Positions 23,040 through 31,957 of a stretch of 64,000 bases of DNA are shown piece by piece; within the stretch, counting starts at the first letter, position 1; every line of letters begins with the position of its first letter. The translations under genes were made by a program, and so were the position numbers. The notes under the pieces were generated by a model. It did no database searches and was not told the DNA's origin. It saw nothing but the letters and a program-made list of their open reading frames with translations. The stretch is from IMG/VR virus record IMGVR_UViG_3300009183_000095, positions 1-64,000 of that record. The stretch is one strand, 5' to 3'. The DNA comes from a virus.

Positions 23040-23669
23040 TCATTCTCCAAAATAATAAGGATTTTCAACTGTCTTAAAAGCATAGACAGGTTCCATAGTG
23101 TTGTCAAGGAACTTCATTCTAATTACATTATTAGGTTGAGTCGGTTGGCTACCATCGAACTTAGTCGATGAAATATTTAGCTCTTCGTCCACGAACATCG
23201 GGGATATTTCATTTCTAAATAAAAATAATTTTCTTTCTTTTTGAAGTAGACAGCTAAAGGTACCGTCCATTTCGTTAAGCGCGCTCCAGCCCCTACTAAG
23301 ATCTACTAGCATGATAAGGGTATCCCAGTTAATATAAGCTGGATATTTTTCTGCCCTCAATTTCTCAATTACAGATGCTTTAATAATCCCGTTATGCCAC
23401 AAATACCATCCGTTCAATATAGCTGGATGTATGGAGGTTGTATCTTTCGTATCAGAAGTAGGAGCTTGTACGTGCACAATTCCATAATAATACTCAGGTA
23501 CATCGATTTTATCTAGATTAATGGGACCAAGTTGCTGAGATACAATATTTAGTGTACCTGTACCGTAGTTAAATAAAGAAAAAGAATGGGAGTGTTGTCC
23601 TCGATAAGAATTGAGTTCAACTAACTCCCTAAGTTTTTTAGTATTTTTAGACCCTACAATAGCACACAT
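23040..23669 (-). CDS. Class II glutamine amidotransferase
   Basis: A 209-residue glutaminase domain with an N-terminal nucleophile: Cys2 (MCAIVGS), then YRGQHSH near 22-28, GIVHVQAPTSD, LWHNGII, and DGTFSCLL. It frees ammonia from glutamine for another enzyme. No synthase domain is attached, so the partner must be separate. QueC is only one gene away, and fused Gat-QueC proteins are known in archaeosine synthesis, so it may act on a 7-deazaguanine. Equally, stand-alone copies occur in T4-like phages without QueC. Confidence 0.78.
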   Translation of the reverse strand: MCAIVGSKNTKKLRELVELNSYRGQHSHSFSLFNYGTGTLNIVSQQLGPINLDKIDVPEYYYGIVHVQAPTSDTKDTTSIHPAILNGWYLWHNGIIKASVIEKLRAEKYPAYINWDTLIMLVDLSRGWSALNEMDGTFSCLLQKERKLFLFRNEISPMFVDEELNISSTKFDGSQPTQPNNVIRMKFLDNTMEPVYAFKTVENPYYFGE

Positions 23670-24181: not shown

Positions 24182-24946
24182 TTACGTAATAAGATAACTC
24201 CACGGGATTTGTTTAGCATAAGGAATGGGATCAACCATCTTTGCTTTAATAAAATTCTGAATACGCTCACTACACGAAGGACACTCTCCGCAACTCTCAC
24301 CTACTGGTGTAGGATTATAGCAGGTCAATGTGAACTCAAGTTTAACATCACCAATCTCTTTAGCAATCTCAATCTCTTGATACTTAGACAATAGACTAAA
24401 AGGAGCTTCTAGTTTTACTTTATGAGTCCTATTTTGATTAGCAACTGCGTTCATCGAGTCAACAAACTTCTGAGTAGTATCCCAGTACCCATACTCATCA
24501 TGTACTTGCAATCCAGTAAATACATGAGAGGCTTTATTAGCTTCAGCGAAAGAAAAAGCCAGAGAGTTAAGAATCATATTCCTAAACGGTACATAAGTCT
24601 TTGGCTGAGGATCTCCTAACACATCTTTAATAGTAGGCATCGCAACATTAGTACCACCAATATTAGCAGACATGTTTTTAGCAATTTCACCTAGAATATT
24701 AAGATCGAGAATCTTATGCTCAATGCCAAGATACTCACAAGTAGAAGCTGCCATCATCAACTCTCGTTTCTGCTTCTGCCCATAATCATATGATAGAGCA
24801 AACACTCGTTTATTACCATACTTCTTAGCCAAGATATAAGTCATAATGGTACTATCCATACCACCAGACAATACACTAACTACGTTTTCGTTTGTTTCCG
24901 GTAGACTTTGCAGAGCTTGTTGTAGGTTCATATTTTTCTCCATCAT
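24182..24946 (-). CDS. queC: 7-cyano-7-deazaguanine (preQ0) synthase QueC
   Basis: A 254-residue enzyme that turns 7-carboxy-7-deazaguanine, ammonia and ATP into preQ0. The PP-loop SGGMDS is at 27-32. The C-terminal zinc site is visible as CYNPTPVGESCGECPSCSER near 216-235 with four cysteines. Its start overlaps the preceding gene by about 70 bases. Together with FolE, QueD and QueE it completes preQ0 synthesis in the phage. Confidence 0.93.
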   Translation of the reverse strand: MMEKNMNLQQALQSLPETNENVVSVLSGGMDSTIMTYILAKKYGNKRVFALSYDYGQKQKRELMMAASTCEYLGIEHKILDLNILGEIAKNMSANIGGTNVAMPTIKDVLGDPQPKTYVPFRNMILNSLAFSFAEANKASHVFTGLQVHDEYGYWDTTQKFVDSMNAVANQNRTHKVKLEAPFSLLSKYQEIEIAKEIGDVKLEFTLTCYNPTPVGESCGECPSCSERIQNFIKAKMVDPIPYAKQIPWSYLIT

Positions 24947-25214: not shown

Positions 25215-25365
25215 CCAATAACTCCTCCTGTAAGTGAATAAGCCATTGTAATGTAGATAAGTCGTCTCTTTCTGTTGTTACACCGTACTTCTTATACCCT
25301 GCTTCCATTCTAGTTTTGAGCATGTTGGATACGCGTTGTACATTGGGGTCGATCCATTTTTCCAT
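25150..25365 (-). CDS. MazG-like small phage protein
   Basis: A 71-residue helical protein. RMEAGYKKYGVTTERDDL and LQWLIHLQEELLDAAIYVEA hold the E-E-x-x-D-A pattern of MazG/dUTPase-like four-helix nucleotide pyrophosphohydrolases. It is short for an active enzyme and may work as an oligomer. It stands directly after QueF, with the ATG one base from the QueF stop. Confidence 0.6.
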   Translation of the reverse strand: MEKWIDPNVQRVSNMLKTRMEAGYKKYGVTTERDDLSTLQWLIHLQEELLDAAIYVEALKQKAYNHADDNK

Positions 25366-26294
25366 TATTGTCTCGCAGTCTTAGTACACGGTATGTTATG
25401 AGATGCAATATTAGCAATACCATCAATTAAGAAAGTATTAGAAGCTCGTATAGGATTAATATCAATACCACCACGGCGAGTATATAAACAAGTAACCAAT
25501 AGTTCGGTAGGCTCTAACATATCATGTAATCGTTTATAGATGCATTCACAAATCTCTTCATGAAAATGATTCTCTCGTCTCATAGACACAATATACTGCA
25601 ATAGAGACTCAGGGGTAACTGTTTTCTTACCTCTAATATGAATATAAACATCGCCCCAGTCCGGCTGATTAGTTACTCTACAGTTCGATCGCAACGAAGA
25701 AGATCTCCACTTATCAGCATAGCGCCCGGAGCTGTCTACTACTTGTAGTATCTCTGGGCTCTCGTTATAGTGAGAAAAGTCAATCTCTTCTACATTAACA
25801 AAATCTTCTAGGGAAACAAAATCACCATTCAATGGTCTTTGAGTATCAAAGTCACCGGTAAATATACTACAATGTACTTTTCCTCCAACTGCTTCACTCA
25901 TATGTCTTTCAATGGTCTCCTGAACGTTATACAGACCATCCCAGGTCCACATCGTCTTTGCCATATTATAAGAGTTTAAATAAAGCTTAACAGACTTTGA
26001 CTCAACAATATTAGGAGTATCAGAGCTATAAGCGAACTTAAGCCAGCCAGAGACAGGAAAGCCGTTAACCATAAGAGTGGAAAACTCATAAGCGTTCCAT
26101 GCATCTGCTCCAACAAACGGAAGAGATTCCTCTTCAATATCATACTGCGTACGATTAAGTTTGCGCGGTACAGCAACCAAAAGACTTGCATCGACCTCAT
26201 CAGGTGTGACATATGGCTTAACAATAGACCCATCTCCTGCCTTTCCTAAATGAACAGAAACTAGTTTATTTAATTCTTCTTGATTATCACTCAT
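25365..26294 (-). CDS. queF: PreQ0 reductase QueF
   Basis: A 309-residue NADPH-dependent nitrile reductase of the long, two-domain type, making preQ1 from preQ0. The catalytic cysteine is Cys205 in LRSNCRVTNQPDWGDV, with Asp212 in place. The NADPH-binding ESKSVKLYL stretch is at 98-106 and the substrate motif YTRRGGIDINP at 271-281. Length is close to E. coli QueF (282). Its presence means that the end product carries an aminomethyl rather than a nitrile group. Confidence 0.92.
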   Translation of the reverse strand: MSDNQEELNKLVSVHLGKAGDGSIVKPYVTPDEVDASLLVAVPRKLNRTQYDIEEESLPFVGADAWNAYEFSTLMVNGFPVSGWLKFAYSSDTPNIVESKSVKLYLNSYNMAKTMWTWDGLYNVQETIERHMSEAVGGKVHCSIFTGDFDTQRPLNGDFVSLEDFVNVEEIDFSHYNESPEILQVVDSSGRYADKWRSSSLRSNCRVTNQPDWGDVYIHIRGKKTVTPESLLQYIVSMRRENHFHEEICECIYKRLHDMLEPTELLVTCLYTRRGGIDINPIRASNTFLIDGIANIASHNIPCTKTARQ

Positions 26295-26827
26295 TAGCGT
26301 CCTTCCAAAAAATTCATAATTGTTGTAACTCTATCTCTAACAGTACCTTTAACTCGTTGCATAGGTAATTTTCTTTTTTCTATCTGATGTTCAAATAGAT
26401 CAGCAATCTTATCTCTAAACTTCGTATCAGTACTTCTCGTTCCATCATCCACAATATCAAATTCAGGTTCAATATAAAATACATGATCGTACATCGGCCA
26501 TACTTTATCAAATACTTGATTAACATACTCTAACGTTGGCTGATTAATATGAGCAAGATTATACAGGTAGTAAGAATAAACTACCCCATCTAATACAGTA
26601 CGATCAGTAAGCATATCGTTATGAAGAAAGACATTAACAATATGCTCATTCATAATTAAACGCTGAGTATTATCATTACCTTGCTCATTGATCGGTAACC
26701 CATACCCCTTCACCCTGCGTGTTACTTCATCGCAGATAGTATATTTTTCAAATAATTTTTCCGAGCGCAAAGCATTAAGTAGAGTAGTTTTACCTACCGA
26801 CTGCGCCCCACTAATTCCAATTCTCAT
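26294..26827 (-). CDS. P-loop kinase, NadR/AAA_28 type
   Basis: A 177-residue P-loop protein. Walker A GAQSVGKTT is at residues 6-14, DRTVLDGVVYSYYL near 76-89 and a Walker B-like HVFYIEPEFD near 115-124 follow. The pattern resembles NadR-type or deoxynucleoside monophosphate kinases. It stands between QueF and the formyltransferase, overlapping the latter by 17 bases, so a role in nucleotide supply is plausible. The substrate is unknown. Confidence 0.7.
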   Translation of the reverse strand: MRIGISGAQSVGKTTLLNALRSEKLFEKYTICDEVTRRVKGYGLPINEQGNDNTQRLIMNEHIVNVFLHNDMLTDRTVLDGVVYSYYLYNLAHINQPTLEYVNQVFDKVWPMYDHVFYIEPEFDIVDDGTRSTDTKFRDKIADLFEHQIEKRKLPMQRVKGTVRDRVTTIMNFLEGR

Positions 26828-27374
26828 TTAATAGTAACCTCGTCTTTATAAAATCAACCCATAGTTGTATGGATATAAATTTTAGTTTAGTACATAGTGA
26901 GTCAAGCGTCTCACCCTCTTCAATGCTGCATGTTTGAATACGTAGAATCTGCCCTGCGTCTACTTCAGGTACTACACTATGAATTACAGTTCCAGTGGAG
27001 GGAAGTTTTAGATCTAAAGCTTTCTGTTGAGGATCTTTACCTTTAAGAGATGGGTAAGTTACTATGTCGCCTGGATGTCCGTTGAATATATTGAACTCAT
27101 TACAAATATGTTCCGGTAATATTCTAAGATATCCGTGAAGAGTAATAATCCAAGAAGCTTCTATTTCGTACCTAACAAATGACATTATATCATCATGCTT
27201 TAACTTTACAACATTGTAAGTTTGCATATCTGGATGCCATTTACTCTCATCCATATTATTTGTAAGAACTATAGACGGTTGGTATCCTAGGTTATCACTT
27301 ATACCTACAATCTCCGATCCAGTCTGACTGAATAAAGCTACCCAACCGGCCTTACGTATAACATGGTTACCCAT
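26811..27374 (-). CDS. Formyltransferase, predicted dPreQ1 formyltransferase (DpdN-like)
   Basis: With the start at 27374 the protein has 187 residues of the formyl-THF-dependent transferase fold (PurN/Fmt core). The catalytic triad can be placed: Asn98 and His100 in FNGHPGDIVTYPSLKG, and Asp139 in TGTVIHSVVPEVDAGQIL. PurN itself works in purine synthesis, yet here the gene overlaps dpdA by eight bases and is followed by queF. A dPreQ1 formyltransferase, DpdN, has been predicted in phages with formylated 7-deazaguanine DNA. An upstream start at 27434 would add 20 residues lying inside dpdA. Confidence 0.8.
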   Translation of the reverse strand: MGNHVIRKAGWVALFSQTGSEIVGISDNLGYQPSIVLTNNMDESKWHPDMQTYNVVKLKHDDIMSFVRYEIEASWIITLHGYLRILPEHICNEFNIFNGHPGDIVTYPSLKGKDPQQKALDLKLPSTGTVIHSVVPEVDAGQILRIQTCSIEEGETLDSLCTKLKFISIQLWVDFIKTRLLLNENWN

Positions 27375-28155
27375 TAACAATCGCTCTAAAGCACTCGACG
27401 TTATAGGTAATTCTGTTGAGAGTGTCATTATCAACCTCGCTATTAATCATAGTATAAAGTTTCTGAGAAGGTTTATCCTCTAGACCCTTATCACCATTAT
27501 ATCTTATTCCTTTTAATCCTGCAACTACTGGATTTGACGTATCAATAGAATCAATCCAAGTATAGCCTCTATATGATTCAAACTCCTGAGGTAGTCCACA
27601 TCCAAGTAGGTGATGTGGCTTGTCTTGATTAATGATATCATTAGCTAACATATAGTGAATGAGTGCATCTCGCCCGTACATGTAATGATGAAACTTAGTA
27701 GGTAGTTTACCATTGACATCTTCATTTACAAAGAAAGAATAATCAAACGAAATAGCTATCTTATCAACATAAGATTCAATCTCTTGATAGCACCAAATAA
27801 TTTCGTCTAAAGTTTTGCCTTGCACCACACCAATACATTGACCCGGTAGATCATGTAGCCAATTCTTAACGTTAGCAACTGTCTTTTCCGCTCCCTCTAA
27901 CACATCGGGAATAATAAAAGCAGTAGGATGTAGATATTCGATCCACTTACAGTACTTGTTTTCATCAAATGCTTCGCCGAGTTCAAAGATAGAGTTATCT
28001 AAAATAATTTCACGACCTTTATTCTTTGCCTTTACAAACAGATCTCGATATTCTTCACTCTCTTCAAACAAGTGAACTAGGGCATAATCATAATCAGTAA
28101 CTTCCTGTATGCGAGGAAAAATAGAGATGGGGGCTTCGTGGGCAATCTTAATCAT
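27367..28155 (-). CDS. dpdA: DNA 7-deazaguanine transglycosylase, DpdA-like
   Basis: A 262-residue TIM-barrel protein related to tRNA-guanine transglycosylase. Landmarks are EIILDNSIFELGEAF (49-63), IIPDVLEG (81-88), CIGVVQGKT (107-115), HLLGCGLPQEF (182-192) and WIDSIDTSNP (200-209); the aspartates in the first and last are candidate catalytic residues. The C-terminal CxCxxC zinc site of tRNA enzymes is absent, and the protein is shorter, both as in phage DpdA. It would replace guanine in DNA by a 7-deazaguanine. Surrounded by all synthesis genes. Confidence 0.88.
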   Translation of the reverse strand: MIKIAHEAPISIFPRIQEVTDYDYALVHLFEESEEYRDLFVKAKNKGREIILDNSIFELGEAFDENKYCKWIEYLHPTAFIIPDVLEGAEKTVANVKNWLHDLPGQCIGVVQGKTLDEIIWCYQEIESYVDKIAISFDYSFFVNEDVNGKLPTKFHHYMYGRDALIHYMLANDIINQDKPHHLLGCGLPQEFESYRGYTWIDSIDTSNPVVAGLKGIRYNGDKGLEDKPSQKLYTMINSEVDNDTLNRITYNVECFRAIVNG

Positions 28156-29413: not shown

Positions 29414-30109
29414 TTATAGGCCTTTTCCATACGATTGCTGTAGCGCTATGTTATCGAAAAATTCTTTCTTTACTGACGCGTCATGAAATTGACCGTGTAG
29501 TACTGTCGTTTGAGTAAGTGAACTATGAGCCATAATTCCTCGGTTCTCACAACACCCGTGAGTAGCTTGGACATATACACCCACATCCTTACTATCGGTA
29601 GATGCAATTATTTCTCTAGCAATGTCGTTGCAGAGCTCTTCCTGTAACGTTCCACGGCGAGCACACCATTGAGCGATTCTAGTATATTTAGATAAGCCAA
29701 TAAGTTTATTAGCGGCGATAATCCCGATGTATGCCACACCAGATACAGGCTGGTGATGATGACTGCACATAGAGCGCAATTCGCTACGGACAACTAGCAT
29801 ACCTTCGTAACGGTCTTGCGAGTCATTAGGAAAAGCGGTTGCTGTAGGTCTGTGGTCATATCGCCCTGCCATTATTTCATTAAAGTACATTTTAGCAAGG
29901 CGCTTGGCTGTACCTCTACTATTAGGATCGTTTTCACGGTCAATTAATAATACATCCAAAACTTTTTCAAACGCTTCTGTAGCTTCTGTAATTAGTGTCT
30001 GTTTAGTAATATCATCACCAACATACTCACTAATATTATCTCCAGCCCAGAAGCGCTTACCATCAGATTTCATTCGTTTGCGAATAACTTGTGATAGATT
30101 TTTTTCCAT
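29414..30109 (-). CDS. folE: GTP cyclohydrolase I, FolE
   Basis: A 231-residue enzyme that opens GTP to dihydroneopterin triphosphate, the first step to 7-deazaguanines. SMCSHHHQPVSGVAYIGI and NKLIGLSKYTRIAQWCARR are the core motifs, and the zinc ligands can be seen as Cys in SMCSHHH and in GCCENRG. The usual MTMRG motif is replaced by CCENRG. The ATG at 30109 is preceded by GAGGG; a TTG 15 bases up is an alternative. Confidence 0.92.
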   Translation of the reverse strand: MEKNLSQVIRKRMKSDGKRFWAGDNISEYVGDDITKQTLITEATEAFEKVLDVLLIDRENDPNSRGTAKRLAKMYFNEIMAGRYDHRPTATAFPNDSQDRYEGMLVVRSELRSMCSHHHQPVSGVAYIGIIAANKLIGLSKYTRIAQWCARRGTLQEELCNDIAREIIASTDSKDVGVYVQATHGCCENRGIMAHSSLTQTTVLHGQFHDASVKKEFFDNIALQQSYGKGL

Positions 30110-30116
30110 AATACCC

Positions 30117-30665
30117 TCAGTCAATTAGATTCTCTTTCCACTCACGGTGACCTTCTCTATATGCCATATTGCTAATAGTCTCTCTTACCTCTACTCTATA
30201 GCACCAAAGGCGTTCTGCTTCACTAGGTCCCCACATATCTGGAATATATACTCCATTAACGTATCGGTAGAGCATATCAGAAAGACCTTCACAACCAAGC
30301 TTTGGAAGAATAGTTAACTTAGCCATCTTTTTATCTTGCAAAAGTTTAAACGTTTCTAACTCTGGGTCATCTTCAGCTACTAATAAAGTATGATCAAACT
30401 GATCTTCTAAAATTCCTTTTAGTTCTTTTAGACCGCCATAATCAGCAGCCCAGTTGCGTACATCAAGATCATCAGTACCAAAAAAGAATCTCATAGAAAA
30501 ACTATAACCATGAATTAAGTTACAATGGGAGTCTGCTCTCCATTGACGATATGCACATGGAAATGCATTGTGATATTCTTTAGTACTCGTATACTTGTAT
30601 TGTACTGGGTGACGTAAATACTGTCTATGGTCGCTTACTACTGGTGTTCCAAAATCATCTGACAT
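30117..30665 (-). CDS. queD: 6-carboxytetrahydropterin synthase QueD-like
   Basis: A 182-residue protein of the QueD/PTPS fold. The catalytic cysteine fits Cys48 (SHCNLIHGYSF), and FDHTLLVAEDDP holds the His of the catalytic pair; RVEVRETISN carries the acid. Two zinc ligands of classical QueD appear changed: a Tyr (39) where the FSAAHRL His is expected and Tyr54 in HGY for HGH. It makes carboxytetrahydropterin for QueE. CAGGAG precedes the ATG. Confidence 0.85.
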   Translation of the reverse strand: MSDDFGTPVVSDHRQYLRHPVQYKYTSTKEYHNAFPCAYRQWRADSHCNLIHGYSFSMRFFFGTDDLDVRNWAADYGGLKELKGILEDQFDHTLLVAEDDPELETFKLLQDKKMAKLTILPKLGCEGLSDMLYRYVNGVYIPDMWGPSEAERLWCYRVEVRETISNMAYREGHREWKENLID

Positions 30666-30689: not shown

Positions 30690-31103
30690 TTATACCTTTT
30701 CCCACCAAAAGTCTATCCAATTGGTTATGATTTGTCTATCAATCATCCATCCCCAATAATTCGGCTTAAATGATTGACCGGAGTTATAAACGAGGCTTGC
30801 AGTGTCTACATGACCATGAATAGCTATAATTTCCTGCATCGTCTGACCTGTATCAACTATATCATCAACGAGCAATATTTTATCGTTTAACTTAAATCCT
30901 AAATCAATTACAGTGGGTTCATTCTTTGACCAATGTAACGCTTGAAAGGGGATGTTCATTTTATGGCTTAATGCCACAGCAGGTATTACACCCCCTCTTG
31001 CAATACCTACAATACAATCATATTTTTTACCTGATTTTTCTACACTCTCAGCTATTCGATTTACATCACGTGTAAATGCTTCAAAGTTATAAAATAAGTT
31101 CAT
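30690..31103 (-). CDS. Purine-type phosphoribosyltransferase
   Basis: A 137-residue PRTase fold enzyme. The PRPP loop is KILLVDDIVDTGQTM near 75-89, and the N-terminal IVGIARGGVIPAVALS near 34-49 holds the pyrophosphate loop. It resembles xanthine or hypoxanthine-guanine phosphoribosyltransferases. It starts on the QueE stop (TAATG) and lies before QueD, inside the deazaguanine operon. Salvage of the guanine that DpdA releases is an attractive guess. An ATG 12 bases further up is possible. Confidence 0.75.
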   Translation of the reverse strand: MNLFYNFEAFTRDVNRIAESVEKSGKKYDCIVGIARGGVIPAVALSHKMNIPFQALHWSKNEPTVIDLGFKLNDKILLVDDIVDTGQTMQEIIAIHGHVDTASLVYNSGQSFKPNYWGWMIDRQIITNWIDFWWEKV

Positions 31104-31957
31104 TAAGTACCCCATTCATTTTTAAAGAGAGGCACTTGTAGTCTATCAGAATATCTGAAACCTTTTTTCATTGCAAGATCTGCAACAGCTCTGTTGTTCA
31201 TATGGTATACAGACTCTACACCACCAACAGGCATCAAATAAACCGGTCCATTAAAGCCATAGTCACGATATGCCTCAACCGCGCGACTTGCTTCATCTGC
31301 ATCTTCTTGTGTTGCTACTACAAACTTCAGATAGGTATAGCCAATGCCACTATAAGCGGATACTACCTTTGGTTGAATTGCTTCTTCCCATGACTCACCT
31401 GATACAGATAGTTTAGGTGATACGGAGAAGGTAAGGCTGCTATATTCTCTATCGTTAACGAAAGTCCATTCGTTAAGATATTCTTTAAGAGAATCAGAGA
31501 GAGGTTGAGTACCGTTAGTTTCAAACGTTAACTCTTTTAGACCCCTCATACATGGCTGTAGTAGAAGGTCAGGGTATGCACGTTGCCAACCCAGTAGAGG
31601 TTCACCGCCGGTGATTACGAGATGTTCGTCTTTCCATTCCTTGTGCGGTAGAAGATCAACAATTGAAGTGGCAAGACTATCAACAGGTACAACAGGGCTA
31701 AGATGCTTAAAGCGCACATCCCAGCTAGCATAACTATCACACCCGGTAGATACCAAAGGGAGTGCTTTATACTCTGTGTAATTTTCGGGGTTGATTTTAA
31801 GGTGCTCATCACTTTTTTGTCCTTTCGGCATACCAAAACCTGAGCATGTGAAGTTACATCCAAATGTTCTTAGGAACACGGACGGGACGCCCATATAGCG
31901 ACCTTCACCTTGAATGGAGTAGAATAACTCCGCGACTTTAAGTTTCTGCAATCTCAT
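31103..31957 (-). CDS. queE: 7-carboxy-7-deazaguanine synthase QueE
   Basis: A 284-residue radical SAM enzyme. ELFYSIQGEGRYMGVPSVFL is the family start. The iron-sulphur cysteines appear as Cys34 and Cys38 (GCNFTCSGFGMP) and Cys73 (TGCDSYASWD), so the third ligand is displaced by a 34-residue insertion, a form I know from phage QueE. VITGGEPLLGW follows near 115. It converts carboxytetrahydropterin to 7-carboxy-7-deazaguanine. It overlaps the deformylase gene by 20 bases. Confidence 0.92.
   Translation of the reverse strand: MRLQKLKVAELFYSIQGEGRYMGVPSVFLRTFGCNFTCSGFGMPKGQKSDEHLKINPENYTEYKALPLVSTGCDSYASWDVRFKHLSPVVPVDSLATSIVDLLPHKEWKDEHLVITGGEPLLGWQRAYPDLLLQPCMRGLKELTFETNGTQPLSDSLKEYLNEWTFVNDREYSSLTFSVSPKLSVSGESWEEAIQPKVVSAYSGIGYTYLKFVVATQEDADEASRAVEAYRDYGFNGPVYLMPVGGVESVYHMNNRAVADLAMKKGFRYSDRLQVPLFKNEWGT

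Follow-up and report, generated by a model that had tools for sequence, protein, structure and literature searches.

A PurN-like formyltransferase encoded with DpdA and QueF in a phage family is a probable DpdN-type preQ1 N-formyltransferase

Which amine does a phage formylate when it carries a PurN-like formyltransferase gene that overlaps dpdA and is followed by a kinase gene and queF? The original prediction for this locus, which lies in a window of 64,000 nucleotides (the whole stretch of DNA analysed here, taken from a phage record of 64.7 kb that carries T4-like replication genes), was that the gene is not a purine gene and that the acceptor is preQ1, either as free base or in DNA. The analysis described here leads to the same view: the gene very probably (about 87%) encodes a DpdN-type preQ1 N-formyltransferase, which would place a formyl group onto preQ1 for the phage DNA, giving fdPreQ1. 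The idea of a preQ1 formyltransferase is well supported but not new, and the name DpdN already exists. Cui et al. are said to have found 2'-deoxy-7-(formylamino)methyl-7-deazaguanine (fdPreQ1) in phage DNA in 2023, and reportedly predicted a dPreQ1 formyltransferase that they named DpdN; to our knowledge its function is so far a prediction only. The window enzyme has the same predicted role as DpdN, which is likewise found in phages with a 7-deazaguanine DNA pathway, DpdA and QueF, and we know of no difference between the two.

Among named phages, Flavobacterium phage vB_FspM_immuto is the closest; we take it to be the phage of the published fdPreQ1/DpdN case, its gp204 (YP_010114479.1) presumably being the published DpdN. 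This protein, annotated as phosphoribosylglycinamide formyltransferase, is about 50% identical to the window formyltransferase and is its only near-full-length phage match in the annotated phage collection. The order dpdA, formyltransferase, kinase, queF is the same in both phages, but immuto has a short extra ORF between dpdA and the formyltransferase gene, and its folE, queD, queE and phosphoribosyltransferase genes are arranged differently. In the window the cassette lies on the minus strand and runs queE, phosphoribosyltransferase, queD, folE, several small ORFs, dpdA, formyltransferase, P-loop kinase, queF, two small ORFs and queC, so that the predicted kinase and queF are indeed found downstream.

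Table 1. Features of the formyltransferase locus, in window coordinates.
Feature	Position	Strand	Remarks
formyltransferase (DpdN-type, predicted)	26811..27374	-	187 aa, preferred ATG start; PF00551, PurN-type fold (model and Foldseek)
formyltransferase triad codons	N98 27081-27083; H100 27075-27077; D139 26958-26960	-	invariant in 27/27
dpdA, DNA-guanine transglycosylase, predicted TGT fold	27367..28155	-	stop overlaps formyltransferase start by 8 bp
P-loop kinase (AAA_28)	26294..26827	-	same operon as formyltransferase
queF, preQ0 nitrile reductase making preQ1	25365..26294	-	QueF_N and QueF domains
queC, preQ0 synthase	24182..24946	-	PF06508, 185 bits
folE, GTP cyclohydrolase I	29414..30124	-	PF01227
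queD	30117..30665	-	PF01242 and PHROG QueD-like
queE, radical SAM	31103..31957	-	PHROG QueE-like, E 3e-54

The formyltransferase ORF was first called at 26811-27434 on the minus strand, from a TTG codon. The conserved N-terminus of the family starts close to an ATG at 27374, which makes this codon the likelier start and the TTG at 27434 a probable miscall. With the ATG start, the overlap with dpdA that had been reported is 8 bp long and not 68. It is not special to this phage, being present in 59 of 106 scored family loci, with 4 or 8 bp as the commonest lengths.

The protein matches Formyl_trans_N (PF00551) with 35.8 bits against a cut-off of 26.1, and the Asn-His-Asp triad of the 10-formyl-THF transferase fold, which the original prediction had described as intact, is present in the window enzyme and in all 27 family members (187-residue numbering in Table 1). 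Structure prediction, proposed earlier as a check, gave an AlphaFold2 model (from 26 sequences) with a mean pLDDT of 93, for which the 24 best PDB matches in Foldseek are all PurN-type enzymes. Another explanation of such a gene would be a purine-biosynthesis PurN taken from a host, as the annotation in immuto implies and as cyanophages carry; fold and triad are those of PurN, the nearest solved family, the donor is probably also the same, and the immuto and cyanophage versions bear the PurN label. Yet the window protein scores only 40 bits against the PurN equivalog TIGR00639 (cut-off 150.1), and falls below the PurU and ArnA equivalog cut-offs as well. A tree was built with PurN, Fmt, ArnA and PurU of E. 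coli as references, together with PurNs from two bacteria and two cyanophages and two more Fmts; in it, all phage family members together with one Microcoleus protein form a clade of their own (support 100/100), separate from cyanophage and host PurN.

When the family is mapped onto E. coli PurN, the triad N106/H108/D144 is kept in 27/27 members, and so are H137, G11 and S8. The substrate side differs, however, if Asn13 and Glu173 (GAR side) and Arg64 are, as we assume, substrate-side residues of PurN: Glu occupies the position of Asn13 in 26 of 27 members, Ser or Ala that of Glu173 in all 27, and the position of Arg64 is not conserved. The statement that no other purine synthesis gene is present held for the two families searched, AIRS (PurM/PurL) and GARS (PurD), both of which are absent from the window record, which at 64.7 kb may be a fragment; nor was AIRS found in 14, or GARS in 13, further phage records searched, among them 12-13 longer ones. 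The same searches did detect both families in a Microcoleus genome and in most of the control genomes. We thus discarded a purine role on the equivalog scores, the separate clade and the absence of AIRS and GARS from the phage records searched; with the tie of the gene to dpdA and queF also against it, a host-derived PurN is a highly improbable explanation. Fmt has the Formyl_trans_N domain and the triad in common with the phage enzyme, and its nucleic-acid-linked amine acceptor would provide an analogy. Here too the score is far below the cut-off (28.6 bits against 201.5 for TIGR00460), and the 187-residue protein stops after the N-terminal domain, leaving no room for the C-terminal tRNA domain of Fmt.

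The surrounding cassette suggests where the acceptor could come from. A catalytic Cys, Asp, His and Glu together with an ESKS motif are the marks of the QueF nitrile reductase, and all are kept in 107/107 phage QueF sequences; the window QueF itself scores 233 bits, below the TIGR03138 cut-off of 293. With these residues intact, the phage should have preQ1 at its disposal, and with it a primary amine. The window DpdA shares 53% identity with the protein annotated as DpdA in immuto. At the sequence level its profile matched a DNA-guanine transglycosylase only weakly (E 0.15), so a model (built from an alignment from which one row of the annotated phage collection was left out) and a fold search were used; the model matches TGT structures in Foldseek (E 1.5e-8), which confirms, at the level of the predicted structure, that the window dpdA encodes a TGT-fold protein.

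Two further genes of the region deserve mention. The phosphoribosyltransferase gene (30690-31115), part of the cassette here and in immuto, has xanthine phosphoribosyltransferase as its best NCBIfam match, below the cut-off, and one may speculate that its product recovers the guanine that DpdA sets free. A protein starting MCAIVGS (23040-23669), encoded close to queC both here and in many T4-like relatives, resembles a class II glutamine amidotransferase without a Pfam match; again as speculation, it might be a separate partner that supplies QueC with ammonia. PDB sequence searches with this protein and with the P-loop kinase yielded no informative match.

The relatives of the window enzyme form a phage family, with at least 576 matches in IMG/VR against two contigs among 84,980 species genomes, the scan patterns used for the two being slightly different. 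Synteny with dpdA and queF is near-obligate. Among 76 loci selected by the formyltransferase, dpdA lies upstream in 72, the remaining four being cut by a contig end, and queF lies downstream in 70, with five others cut and one true exception (L110). A second set (n = 45) contains dpdA in 42 loci and queF in 41; its gaps are a bacterial locus without either gene (L112), L111 without queF, and loci with nearby contig ends (L130 and L140 for dpdA, L147 and L151 for queF). Since such sampling favours the formyltransferase, loci with enough downstream DNA were also selected by dpdA. The formyltransferase and queF occur together in 64 of these, queF alone in one, neither in four (three of them close Campylobacter relatives) and the formyltransferase alone in none. 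The co-occurrence has p = 6e-6, or 1e-3 if the three Campylobacter phages are treated as one, although both values ignore phage relatedness and the phage counts are not phylogenetically independent. Conversely, queF is found without the formyltransferase in other phages: 67 phage records match queF, and in the annotated phage collection the formyltransferase is matched over most of its length only by the four immuto records.

The acceptor named in the original prediction is well supported because the enzyme fails the PurN test, falls into its own clade, has replaced substrate-side residues, is syntenic with dpdA and queF, and is accompanied by a QueF with intact catalytic residues. On this basis FolE, QueD, QueE and QueC would convert GTP to preQ0, which QueF would reduce to preQ1 with its free CH2NH2 group, while DpdA would exchange guanine in phage DNA for the 7-deazaguanine. 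The formyltransferase, using the Asn-His-Asp mechanism of PurN and Fmt, would transfer a formyl group from 10-formyl-THF to the preQ1 amine, with 7-(formylamino)methyl-7-deazaguanine (fdPreQ1) as the expected end product in DNA. Published base chemistry fits this proposal. Unformylated dPreQ1 (mass 295) was found in the DNA of Vibrio phage 6E351A, which has queF (PMC12028318), and our search found no full-length formyltransferase match in Vibrio phages; the DNA of Streptococcus phage Dp-1 contains dPreQ1, and for Campylobacter phages a high level of modification by dADG is reported (PMC6884629).

The kinase gene that directly follows and overlaps the formyltransferase gene raises the question of whether the formamide is an end product at all, or an intermediate that the kinase or another cassette enzyme converts further; of 76 loci with the formyltransferase, 57 also have the kinase. 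The kinase gene, however, directly follows dpdA in Campylobacter CP220-group phages that have neither queF nor formyltransferase (L156:10676-12036); CP220 itself has the dpdA and kinase pair, with no QueF_N match and no formyltransferase match. Nor was the kinase detected in a group of loci having both formyltransferase and queF. The kinase thus tracks dpdA, and probably belongs with DpdA rather than with formylation. We rejected it as a step of a formyl pathway on account of its presence beside dpdA in the Campylobacter phages, and further conversion of the formamide appears quite unlikely.

For the preQ1 formyltransferase proposed here, the order of formylation and insertion is less clear-cut, with formylation after insertion slightly favoured. 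A tentative version, to which we give somewhat less than even odds, is that the acceptor is preQ1 already in DNA and that the Glu replacing Asn13 of PurN recognises the flipped-out base. Should this be true, the enzyme would depend on 10-formyl-THF and would formylate a base that is already part of DNA. In the opposite order, a serious competitor that we rate a little lower, the enzyme would formylate the free preQ1 base and DpdA would insert formyl-preQ1 directly. The translational overlap with dpdA would suit such a shared small-molecule route, as would a protein that consists of a bare PurN-type domain with an acidic pI of 5.6 and no added nucleic-acid-binding domain. DpdA is likewise acidic though it acts on DNA, so that charge decides nothing and was dropped as a hint of DNA binding. 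Two loci, L255:5278-8326 and the shorter L259:7935-10424, keep dpdA, kinase and queF and lack the formyltransferase between dpdA and the kinase gene. At every position that is conserved among the other DpdA proteins, theirs are unchanged. This would be expected of a DpdA that inserts plain preQ1 with or without the formyltransferase, and it argues weakly against insertion of the formylated base. Both loci would provide natural controls, expected to carry plain dPreQ1.

The preQ1 context is not without exceptions. In two related phages dpdA and the formyltransferase gene overlap or are adjacent (L110:7244-8525 and L111:786-2196), and queF was found neither in L110, a 40-kb record, nor in L111, a bacterial assembly; there the host may supply preQ1, or else the enzyme has a different acceptor. 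The Microcoleus member of the clade is the last gene of a run encoding a radical SAM protein, a thymidylate-kinase-like protein, a DegT aminotransferase, a phosphoribosyltransferase and the formyltransferase (L112:4752-8537), with neither dpdA nor queF nearby. In a search of 60 cyanobacterial genomes with the family profile it scored 188 bits, and other formyltransferases 66 at most. Standing beside a DegT-type aminotransferase without dpdA and queF, this member indicates that the tie to preQ1 does not hold throughout the family.

What is added here to the existing picture of DpdN is a phage family with many members, a nested dependence among genes in which the formyltransferase goes with queF and queF with dpdA, and a residue signature that separates the family from the database label 'phosphoribosylglycinamide formyltransferase' and names residues to mutate. 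These features would help to predict in which phages the DNA bases are formylated, a modification that could plausibly protect against restriction enzymes.
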